Part shown: piece by piece, positions 8,947-35,611 of the stretch | Layout: each line of letters begins with the position of its first letter | Position numbering within the stretch: the stretch's first letter is position 1 | Position numbers and translations under genes: made by a program | Notes under the pieces: generated by a model | What the model saw: the letters and a program-made list of their open reading frames with translations, nothing else | What the model was told of the DNA's origin: nothing | Databases searched by the model: none | Assembly (NCBI GenBank): GCA_903930455.1 | Contig: CAIYYT010000055.1 | Location: forward strand, 1-38,880 | Source: an uncultured bacterium | GTDB lineage: Bacteria > Zixibacteria > MSB-5A5 > CAIYYT01 | Direction of reading: 5' to 3' | Length of the DNA stretch: 38,880 nucleotides

Positions 8947-8974
8947 TGGTGCCCACCGCTTGCGGTGGGTTTTC
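8947..8974. repeat. Palindrome followed by a T-run
   Basis: CCCACCGC-TT-GCGGTGGG followed by TTTTC: an 8-bp perfect stem with a 2-nt separation, terminator-like on the plus strand although no gene precedes it. A second inverted repeat, CGTCAGGAA...TTCCTGACG, follows within about 25 nt. Confidence 0.5.
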
Positions 8975-9186
8975 TCCGCTATGCGCCGTCAGGAATCCTT
9001 TCCTGACGGATCAGCAAGGCGGGAATCCAGGCTTGTTACCACGGCGCGATACGACCATCAAAACACGATCGGGAACCCAGAGTCAAACAGGCCAACCATC
9101 CGCCTGCGGGAGTTGACGGCCTAGGCCCGCTTGTTCTTTGACATTGTGAATACTTGCTCGGACCAATGTGGTACGGCCCTCTGCAA

Positions 9187-9756
9187 CTATTCCCTGCCGG
9201 GGCGATTTAGCGAGCGCCAGTCATCGGGGGTGTTTTTGTCGAGCCACTTGAGGAAATCGAGTTCGGATTTGAGAAACTTGATCCGGTGCTTGATCACGGC
9301 CAGCTTGCCGAAAGACATCTCCCCTTCTCGTTCCGCCCGCGCCCAGACATCCTGAATACCCTCCAGCTCCTTCTGCAACGCTTCCTGTCTATGTTCAAGC
9401 AGCTTCTTGAAAGATACCGTGTCGGCGGCGAATCGATCAGCAAATCCCAGCAACAGATCAAAATCAAAGTAGACGTGGTTATAGAATAGCTGCGATACGA
9501 CCTCGTGATTCTGAAGTATCTCTCTCCCCTTGTCCACTAAACGGTATTCTTTCTTCAGTTCCGCTTGATCCTTCTGGAGCAGTTCCACTAGACCGGCGCG
9601 CGCCAGCTTGCGCAGTGAGTAATACAAATGGGGGCGTGAATACTCCGCCCAGTAGTCGGCGCCCATCTCAATCAAACGGCGATCGATTTCCCAGGCGTGC
9701 GCCGCTCGTTCAGAAAGGAACGCCAGAATGATCAGGTCGGTGCGGGTAATCGCCAT
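9187..9756 (-). CDS. PadR family transcriptional regulator
   Basis: A 189-residue protein. The first about 80 residues form the PadR winged helix: LIILAFLSERAAHAWEIDRR, then YSRPHLYYSLRKLARAGLVE (recognition helix) and a wing with KKEYRLVDKGREIL. The remaining about 100 residues are a charged helical region (EHRQEALQKELEGIQDVWAR, IKHRIKFLKSELDFLKWLDK) fitting the C-terminal dimerisation domain of the longer, VirA-type PadR subfamily. PadR proteins are usually repressors that respond to small hydrophobic compounds and often control efflux pumps; no such pump gene is next to it. It is divergent from the HD-GYP regulator gene, so the 214-nt gap probably holds its autoregulatory operator. Confidence 0.88.
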   Translation of the reverse strand: MAITRTDLIILAFLSERAAHAWEIDRRLIEMGADYWAEYSRPHLYYSLRKLARAGLVELLQKDQAELKKEYRLVDKGREILQNHEVVSQLFYNHVYFDFDLLLGFADRFAADTVSFKKLLEHRQEALQKELEGIQDVWARAEREGEMSFGKLAVIKHRIKFLKSELDFLKWLDKNTPDDWRSLNRPGRE

Positions 9757-32654: not shown

Positions 32655-33002
32655 ATGGAAATTCAAGCGGGATTATTGCTAGTTGTGAAGTCAGCCCACC
32701 TGGGGGACAGCGAGCCGGATTTGGGCGCAACCCTCATGAAATCGTTTCTCACGATGCTCTGGGAATCAGGCAAGTTGCCGGCAAAAATGGCCTTTTTCGC
32801 CAGCGGAGTGTTTCTGACTACCGAGGGATCGCCAGTCGCAGAAACCCTCGAGAAATTCGTCTCTTGCGGAACCGAAATTGTCTCATGCAGCACCTGCCTC
32901 GAATACTACGGCCGAAAAGAGAAGCTATTAGTAGGCCAGCCGACGACGATGCGAGACACCGTCAATGCTCTATTGGCTTTCGAAAAAGTGCTCTACGCCT
33001 GA
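32655..33002 (+). CDS. YedF-type selenium-metabolism DsrE-like protein (lacking TusA domain)
   Basis: A 115-residue DsrE-fold protein matching the C-terminal domain of the YedF selenium-metabolism family. Markers are SEPDLGATLMKSFLTMLWES, MAFFASGVFLTTEGSPVAET, the double-Cys signature EIVSCSTCLEYYGRKEKLLV, and a T-M-x-D-x-V-x-A-L ending. In many selenium-using bacteria this domain is fused to an N-terminal TusA-like domain; here it stands alone. An AAGGAG ribosome binding site lies 9 nt before ATG 32655. It is convergent with selD, with only 22 nt between their stops. The family is tied by gene context to selenophosphate metabolism, where the cysteines may carry persulfide or perselenide; the exact reaction is not established. 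Confidence 0.85.
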   Translation: MEIQAGLLLVVKSAHLGDSEPDLGATLMKSFLTMLWESGKLPAKMAFFASGVFLTTEGSPVAETLEKFVSCGTEIVSCSTCLEYYGRKEKLLVGQPTTMRDTVNALLAFEKVLYA

Positions 33003-33024: not shown

Positions 33025-34083
33025 CTACCGACCAACTATGATCGTGGACTTGTCTTGCTTCACAACGGCGCCGATGTGCCATACCTGTAAGCCGCGTTGT
33101 CTCGCTTGCTCGACAAATTGCGCTCCGGCCTGCGGCGAGAAAGCAATCAACAGTCCGCCGGAAGTCTGCGCGTCATAGAGTATCTCTATTTCAGCGGCCA
33201 TCAACTGCTCCGACAAGTCTACCTTGTCGGAAATATACTCGCGGTTGGCACCGGCGCCGCCAGTCGGGTGACCTTCGGTAGCATACTTCAGAGCACCGGA
33301 GAGTAAAGGCAAGCTATTGAAATCAATCTTGAGTGAGACACCGGAACCGCTTGCCATCTCATAGGCATGGCCAAGCAAACCGTAGCCGGTAACGTCGGTG
33401 GCGGCATGTGCACCCAGACGCACCATCAATTCTGCGGCGATGTTATTCAGAGCCGCCATCATTGCAATCGCGGCGGCGACATCATCAGGGCCAGCGGCAT
33501 TGTGTTTAAGCGCTGTCGCGATAATACCGGTTCCCAGTGGCTTGGTGAGATAGAGATGATCGCCGATCTGTGCGCCGACGTTGCGGATAATCTTGTCGCA
33601 GTCGATGATGCCGGTAACGGCCATACCGTACTTGATTTCCTTGTCCTTGATCGAATGACCGCCAACTATCACGGCGCCCGCTTCCCGTACTTTCTCGGCC
33701 CCTCCTTGCAGGATTCGAGCAAGTATTTCGGGTGCCATGGTCGCTGACGGGAAAGCGACGATATTCAAGGCTGTTAGCGGTCTGCCTCCCATGGCGTAAA
33801 TGTCCGACAACGCGTTGGCTGCGGCGATTCTGCCGAACTGATAGGGATCGTCGACAATCGGAGGAAAGAAATCGACCGTCTGCACCAGCGCCTGTCGCTC
33901 ATTTATACGATAGACTCCGGCATCGTCTGATGTTTCGAAGCCGACTAGCAGATTGGGATTTGATTCCGCCGGCAGATGTTTCAGCACCTCGACCAAGAAC
34001 TTTGGTCCCAGCTTGGACGCTCAGCCCGCGCAGGAGACTTCGGCAGTGAGCTTGACGGTGATTTCTTCACGACTGTTGTTCAT
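33025..34083 (-). CDS. selD: Selenide, water dikinase (selenophosphate synthetase), selenocysteine-containing
   Basis: The track shows only 33025-33996, missing the N-terminus. Reading upstream in the same frame to ATG 34083 gives MNNSREEITVKLTAEVSCAG, then TGA (34021-34023), then ASKLGPKFLVEVLKHLP. SelD proteins carry their catalytic residue in exactly this place, as (A/H)-G-(C/U)-x-x-K, so TGA should be selenocysteine 21 with catalytic Lys24 following. The rest is typical: LLVGFETSDDAGVYRINE, LVQTVDFFPPIVDDPYQFGR, ANALSDIYAMGGRP, VIVGGHSIKDKEIKYGMAVT, ATDVTGYGLLGHAYEMA and YDAQTSGGLLIA. With Sec the length is 352 residues, normal for SelD. The enzyme makes selenophosphate from selenide and ATP, the selenium donor for Sec-tRNA and selenouridine. 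No clear ribosome binding site is visible. Confidence 0.94.
33983..34020 (-). promoter_or_regulatory. Candidate bacterial SECIS hairpin downstream of the selD TGA
   Basis: Directly after the UGA the mRNA reads GCGUCCAAGCUGGGACCAAA and continues GUUCUUGGUCGAGGUGCU. Two alternative folds are visible: CCAAG/CUUGG around a 14-nt loop starting CUGG, or GACC/GGUC with an AAAGUUCUU loop and an outer AGC/GCU pairing. Bacterial SECIS elements lie in this position, but the first fold is somewhat close to the UGA. I cannot decide between them by eye. Confidence 0.45.
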
Positions 34084-34153: not shown

Positions 34154-34179
34154 AGAAAAAGGGCGCGGAAATCGCGCCC
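34154..34179 (-). terminator. Rho-independent terminator of cysS
   Basis: On the minus strand GGGCGCG-ATTTC-CGCGCCC is followed by TTTTTCTT, 26 nt after the cysS stop. A perfect 7-bp GC stem with a T-run: a convincing intrinsic terminator separating cysS from selD. Confidence 0.93.
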
Positions 34180-34204
34180 CAACAAATCAATATCCTTATC
34201 TCAG

Positions 34205-35611
34205 CTATAGCTTCTTCTTCCACACTGTTCCTTGCGGCGAGTCCTCCAGAACGATGCCCATGGCCAGAAGCTGATCGCGGATTTCATCAGAACGCTTAAA
34301 ATTCCGCGCTTTCCGGGAGTCATTGCGTTCTTTGATCAACGCCTCAACTTCAGAGTCTAACGACACTTCTTCCTTCTTAAGAATGGCCAGCACGGTGTCA
34401 AAGCCATCCATCGCTGCAATCACCTTCTGCGCGTCCTCTTTGGAGATGCCGTCGTCAGCAATCAGCCGATTGACGTCACGCACGAAATCAAAAATGGCTG
34501 CCAGCGCCGGCGAGATATTCAAGTCATCATCCAACCCTTCGACAAATTGTGACTTCGCTCGGTCGACGTATTCATCAGCCTTGCCCGACGCCACGCCGTC
34601 CTCGCCTGCCGACCGTACATTCTCGTAGAAATCCCGCAAGCGTTGAATCGCGCTCTTGGCACCTTCCAGCCCGTCGAAGGTGAAATTGAGCGAAGCCCGA
34701 TAGTGGGTAGAAAGCAGCAAGTAACGAATCGCTACCGCCGGATAGCCCTTGGCCAGTAGATCGCGAACGGTGAAGAAATTGCCAAACGACTTCGCCATCT
34801 TCCGACCCTCGACAATCAAATGCGCCGCGTGGAGCCAGTAATTGACGAACTTCTTGCCGTTGGCCGCCTCCGACTGCGCAATTTCGTTTTCATGATGCGG
34901 AAACATGTTATCGACGCCGCCGGTATGAATGTCGAAATGGTCACCGAGGTACTTGGTCGACATCGCCGAGCATTCGATATGCCATCCCGGTCTGCCTTTG
35001 CCGATTTCCGTCTCCCAGAAAACGTCGCCGTCGGTCTCATCCCATCCCTTCCAGAGCGCAAAGTCCGACACCTGTTCCTTTTCGTACTCATCGCTGGCGG
35101 TTCGCTGTGAAGCCCCCGCCCGCAATGACTCCAGATCCATGTGCGCCAGTTTGCCGTAATTGGGAAACTTGGCGATGGAGAAGTAAATGTCGTTGCCGGA
35201 GCGATAGGCAATGCCCTTGTCCAGGAGCTTCTTGATCAATACCACCATTTCAGGTATGTGCGTGGTCGCTTCGGGATAGTGTTCGGCGCGCTCGATGTGC
35301 AGCACTTCCAAGTCCTCGAAAAACGCCTTCTTGTAGCGCGCCGTATACTCAGCCAACGGCGTGCCCTCGGCCTTGGAATCTCTGATTGTCTTGTCATCTA
35401 CATCAGTAAGATTCATTACGTGAATGACCTTGTATCCGCGATACTTGAGATAACGGCGCAAGAGATCCTCGAACATGAAGGTGCGGAAATTGCCGATGTG
35501 GGCAAATCCGTAGACCGTCGGTCCGCATGTGTACATGCGTACCACACCGGGCTCAACCGGGGTGAACTCCTCCAGTGTTCGCGTCATTGTATTGAAGAAT
35601 CTCAGCGCCAT
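34205..35611 (-). CDS. cysS: Cysteinyl-tRNA synthetase
   Basis: A 468-residue class I aminoacyl-tRNA synthetase charging tRNA-Cys. The zinc/cysteine site is formed by MYTCGPTVYGFAHIGNFRTF (HIGN is the HIGH motif), GWHIECSAMSTKYLG, DIHTGGVDNMFPHHENEIAQ. The second ATP motif is VEGRKMAKSFGNFFTV, a KMAKS variant of KMSKS. HVMNLTDVDDKTI is another family block. The C-terminal helical anticodon-binding part ends with RNDSRKARNFKRSDEIRDQL...DSPQGTVWKK. Length is normal. The M42 peptidase gene ends 28 nt upstream; a terminator follows. Confidence 0.97.
   Translation of the reverse strand: MALRFFNTMTRTLEEFTPVEPGVVRMYTCGPTVYGFAHIGNFRTFMFEDLLRRYLKYRGYKVIHVMNLTDVDDKTIRDSKAEGTPLAEYTARYKKAFFEDLEVLHIERAEHYPEATTHIPEMVVLIKKLLDKGIAYRSGNDIYFSIAKFPNYGKLAHMDLESLRAGASQRTASDEYEKEQVSDFALWKGWDETDGDVFWETEIGKGRPGWHIECSAMSTKYLGDHFDIHTGGVDNMFPHHENEIAQSEAANGKKFVNYWLHAAHLIVEGRKMAKSFGNFFTVRDLLAKGYPAVAIRYLLLSTHYRASLNFTFDGLEGAKSAIQRLRDFYENVRSAGEDGVASGKADEYVDRAKSQFVEGLDDDLNISPALAAIFDFVRDVNRLIADDGISKEDAQKVIAAMDGFDTVLAILKKEEVSLDSEVEALIKERNDSRKARNFKRSDEIRDQLLAMGIVLEDSPQGTVWKKKL

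Follow-up and report, generated by a model that had tools for sequence, protein, structure and literature searches.

We found that the selD gene in the window, the 38,880-nucleotide stretch of bacterial DNA analyzed here, very probably encodes a selenocysteine (Sec)-containing selenophosphate synthetase, the in-frame UGA at codon 21 being read, on the evidence of sequence comparison, as Sec through SelB and tRNA-Sec under the direction of a SECIS element. SelD makes selenophosphate, with which SelA converts Ser-tRNA-Sec to Sec-tRNA-Sec, and SelB brings the Sec-tRNA-Sec to UGA codons that have a SECIS element downstream. The positions of selD, of its neighbors, and of related genes elsewhere in the same genome are given in Table 1.

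Table 1. Features of the selD locus and related genes of the same genome (window positions unless another locus is named)
Feature	Position	Strand	Remarks
selD	33025..34083	-	ATG 34083 to TAG 33025; 352 residues, predicted Sec at 21; TIGR00476 and PDB SelD alignments
Predicted Sec codon 21 (catalytic position), in-frame TGA	34021..34023	-	Opposite Cys in 3u0o and 2yye
Codon 24, catalytic Lys	34012..34014	-	Three residues past Sec; K24 in all sequences of alignment A2
Predicted bacterial SECIS hairpin core, GACCAA-AGUUC-UUGGUC	33991..34007	-	14 to 30 nt past UGA; G at loop position 2
Truncated ORF without read-through	33025..33996	-	TTG start; 323 aa; lacks Sec21 and Lys24
cysS, cysteinyl-tRNA synthetase	34205..35611	-	Upstream neighbor of selD; TIGR00435, 484 bits
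Terminator-like hairpin between cysS and selD	34160..34180	-	8 pairs, 7 of them G-C, then a T run
YedF-like DsrE-type selenium-metabolism-associated protein	32655..33002	+	Tail to tail with selD; TIGR03527, 109.6 bits
NifS-SelD fusion, 734 residues	L147:5437-7641 (contig C197)	-	Cys (GCACK), no stop
Thioredoxin-TPR frame, candidate second selenoprotein	L237:1405-2247, TGA 1576-1578 (contig C250)	+	U-x-x-C

The initial annotation had extended the selD frame upstream through a single TGA to an ATG, and translation of positions 34083 to 33025 on the minus strand bore this out to the base: the TGA at codon 21 (34023-34021) was the sole internal stop, and it lay in the motif SCAG-U-ASK, giving U21-A-S-K24. 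The read-through protein matched TIGR00476 over its full length (396.6 bits against a cut-off of 125, with residues 11 to 318 on model positions 1 to 309). It also aligned across the TGA with the solved SelD structures 3u0o and 2yye, from residues 7 and 10, with Cys opposite the TGA and Lys three residues beyond. These alignments, together with the invariance of K24, agree with the earlier statement that SelD has Cys or Sec at this position followed by a catalytic Lys. A coding signal was present on either side of the TGA, and there was no competing frame. The only ORF left without read-through starts with TTG at 33996, codon 30 of the selD frame; since this is past both Sec21 and Lys24, the ORF does lack the essential N terminus, as had been claimed. 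Truncation of selenoprotein genes by standard gene callers is known behavior (PMC13188914).

We then looked across relatives to determine whether the TGA is conserved. The nearest named relatives of this SelD belong to Candidatus Zixiibacteriota, and the lineage is assigned on these grounds. Among the nearest 80 SelD loci in a species-representative collection, the position of codon 21 was occupied by TGA in 65 and by a Cys codon in 15. All 10 of the nearest Zixiibacteriota-type SelDs had an ATG exactly 20 codons 5' of a TGA at the same place, and relatives keep the TGA rather than pairing a stop with a different start. The class as a whole is rich in Sec-SelD, since a SelD with an in-frame TGA was present in 83 of 98 genomes (a count taken from our genome table), in most of them without any other SelD, and selB scored above its cut-off in 86 of the 98. 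In the tree, the SelD from the window grouped with eight Sec-SelDs of family f18 in one clade of nine. Because the TGA is kept at the same codon in many genomes and is flanked on both sides by coding signal, its occurrence in selD is not due to chance.

The hairpin that follows the UGA within the coding sequence has six pairs and the loop AGUUC, with 19 nt between the UGA and the loop. The bacterial SECIS (bSECIS) model calls for a loop of 3 to 9 nt with a G in its first two positions, a distance of 16 to 37 nt from the UGA, and a minimum free energy of -7.5 kcal/mol or lower (PMC13188914). The hairpin agrees with this geometry. Its core alone, at -5.7 kcal/mol, falls short of the energy limit, which the hairpin passes once the lower stem is added (-9.9 kcal/mol). 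Taken alone, the signal from the window is weak, as 5.8% of synonymous recodings equaled it and 2.4% retained all six pairs. An Rfam gathering scan of the window returned no SECIS or other RNA. Since the 56-nt fold starting at the UGA was, for the window by itself, no better than that of shuffled sequences, we relied on comparison across relatives. Over the window and nine Zixiibacteriota-type relatives, the hairpin paired in 91.7% of cells, compared with 12 to 60% in slid registers, and three of the six pairs had changed on both sides among these ten sequences. The best model-like hairpin had a median energy of -9.3 kcal/mol at Sec loci and -1.2 kcal/mol at Cys loci, with no overlap (p = 1.7e-9 with shared ancestry ignored; 66 Sec loci, including the window). 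The SECIS-like hairpin was absent from the Cys homologues.

The remaining Sec machinery was found in the same genome. The window corresponds to contig C55 in an assembly of 3.77 Mb, scored as 100% complete and 0.08% contaminated, and a second contig, C99, carries selC, selA, and selB in that order, packed as one cluster. The tRNA-Sec scored 71.5 bits and has the anticodon TCA, SelA matched PF03841 with 420 bits, and SelB scored 314 bits against a cut-off of 242. All three genes whose presence the initial annotation had proposed to check are therefore there, and this, with the retention of the TGA by relatives, supports its view that the organism decodes UGA as Sec. The window and C99 have matching G+C contents (0.531 and 0.530, respectively), and DNA identity to G001, a genome of the same genus, is 89% on the uvrC-UbiA side of the window; a foreign origin of the contig is therefore improbable.

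The same evidence bears on what else the TGA in selD might be. It might be a true stop, mark a pseudogene, or stem from the misreading of a Cys codon during sequencing, such that either the downstream ORF or nothing would be made. That ORF does have a possible TTG start, and with another intact SelD in the genome (see below), a loss could be tolerated. We nevertheless regard this as very improbable, given the same TGA across most of the class, the intactness of the rest of the frame, the presence of selABC, and the hairpin with compensatory changes that follows the TGA. Still less credible, to the point of being almost negligible, is that UGA has been generally reassigned or that read-through inserts Trp, Gly, or some residue other than Sec. 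The open frame accords with such a reading, and nothing more does, whereas homologues carry Cys or Sec at this position and a tRNA-Sec with a TCA anticodon is present. Moreover, in 852,530 bases of this genome, 291 frames span 350 codons or more, and TGA terminates 110 of them; it is thus an ordinary stop here, which rules out a general change of the code.

The least ordinary point is that the genome holds, beside the Sec-SelD, a Cys-type SelD fused to NifS, and selD in the window is therefore not the sole possible source of selenophosphate. About 10 of the 98 genomes of the class have both a TGA-containing SelD and a long stop-free SelD, the latter verified as a NifS-SelD fusion in G000 and G001 only. 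Such fusions are rare, one case being given by Zhang et al. 2008 (PMC2398784) and two by Mariotti et al. 2015 (PMC4561486). The fusion found here shares with them the domain order, NifS and then SelD; it differs from the Sec-containing NifS-SelD of Geobacter FRC-32 in having Cys (GCACK) and a standalone Sec-SelD alongside. In a limited search of the open literature, we found no description of this pairing. It raises the question of whether the Sec-SelD, with Sec inserted, might be a dispensable leftover or a recently gained duplicate, the fusion supplying the selenophosphate, a reading that concerns the role of the gene rather than its identity and is compatible with a Sec-containing SelD. The fusion is intact, and three genomes of family f1 (G002 to G004) have selB together with only a long stop-free SelD, as far as was found. 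Among five sampled members of the organism's own family, the standalone Sec-SelD was found only in its own genome, which speaks against the Sec reading, although the assembly of another of the five, G001, is broken at the site: its contig stops within the neighboring UbiA gene, and a search for the cysS side found nothing, so that the absence of selD from G001 is not usable. G002 has a different gene after cysS. Against dispensability, the frame, motif, and hairpin of the Sec-SelD are all intact, and a Sec-SelD is the sole SelD in most genomes of the class; we consider it unlikely.

The initial annotation had predicted further selenoproteins, which we sought in the genome by family searches and in about 0.87 Mb of stretches. 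One candidate came to light, and most of the families tested had no Sec form. In the candidate, a thioredoxin-TPR frame known from one sequence, the TGA stands where the CxxC motif would have its first Cys (DW-U-VW-C). As an independent second UxxC frame, it also favors the Sec reading of selD. The coding signal is strong on both sides of the TGA, the frame aligns to thioredoxins across the site, and the downstream fold has an energy of -17.0 kcal/mol (z = -1.97). This UVWC in place of CxxC is shared with the UxxC thioredoxin selenoproteins listed in PMC13188914, and the candidate is distinguished from them by TPR repeats after the thioredoxin part. Family searches for Sec forms of FdhA, AhpC/Prx, and FlpD returned stop-free members only, and those for SelW and HesB/Fe-S_biosyn returned no members. 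A FlpD (MvhD-type) electron-transfer subunit on contig C50 (L158, about 8956-9324) has no in-frame TGA. In a codon usage scan of about 853 kb for in-frame TGA, the top matches other than SelD looked by eye like a gene end with another gene lying behind it in frame. A search for SelU/MnmH, the tRNA 2-selenouridine synthase (TIGR03167), gave no match, and the selenouridine pathway was not seen; selenophosphate therefore seems, as far as tested, to serve Sec synthesis only.

Of the neighbors of selD, the YedF-like protein scored just under its cut-off of 110 bits and matched only the C-terminal half of the model (positions 83 to 192 of 194), and no such gene adjoined selD in the relatives checked. 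The terminator-like hairpin is a consensus match only, such sites being no commoner here than in shuffled sequences.

We propose that SelB and tRNA-Sec would decode UGA codon 21 as Sec, guided by the SECIS hairpin just 3' of it, and that the resulting SelD would turn selenide and ATP into selenophosphate. SelA would use this selenophosphate to form Sec-tRNA and would thereby also provide the Sec of SelD itself. The Cys-type NifS-SelD could supply selenophosphate without prior Sec synthesis and might start this cycle when Sec is lacking. That it acts as a primer or backup, its desulfurase half drawing selenium from cysteine or selenocysteine and so enabling the Sec-SelD to be made, is a tentative and rather doubtful suggestion.

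Sec-containing SelD is a long-known arrangement, treated by Zhang et al. 2006 (PMC1794560) and Mariotti et al. 2015 (PMC4561486), and is expected for Sec-decoding bacteria. The SelD described here shares with the bacterial Sec-SelD/SPS proteins (TIGR00476) the position of Sec, the Lys at +3, the downstream bSECIS, and selABC, and nothing essential differs; it comes from the little-studied Candidatus Zixiibacteriota and coexists with a Cys-type fused SelD. Since the decoding of UGA as Sec is almost certain in this lineage, annotation of its genes needs Sec-aware calling. The pairing of a Sec-SelD with a Cys-type NifS-SelD in one genome provides a natural setting in which to ask how a SelD that itself needs Sec comes to be made in the first place.
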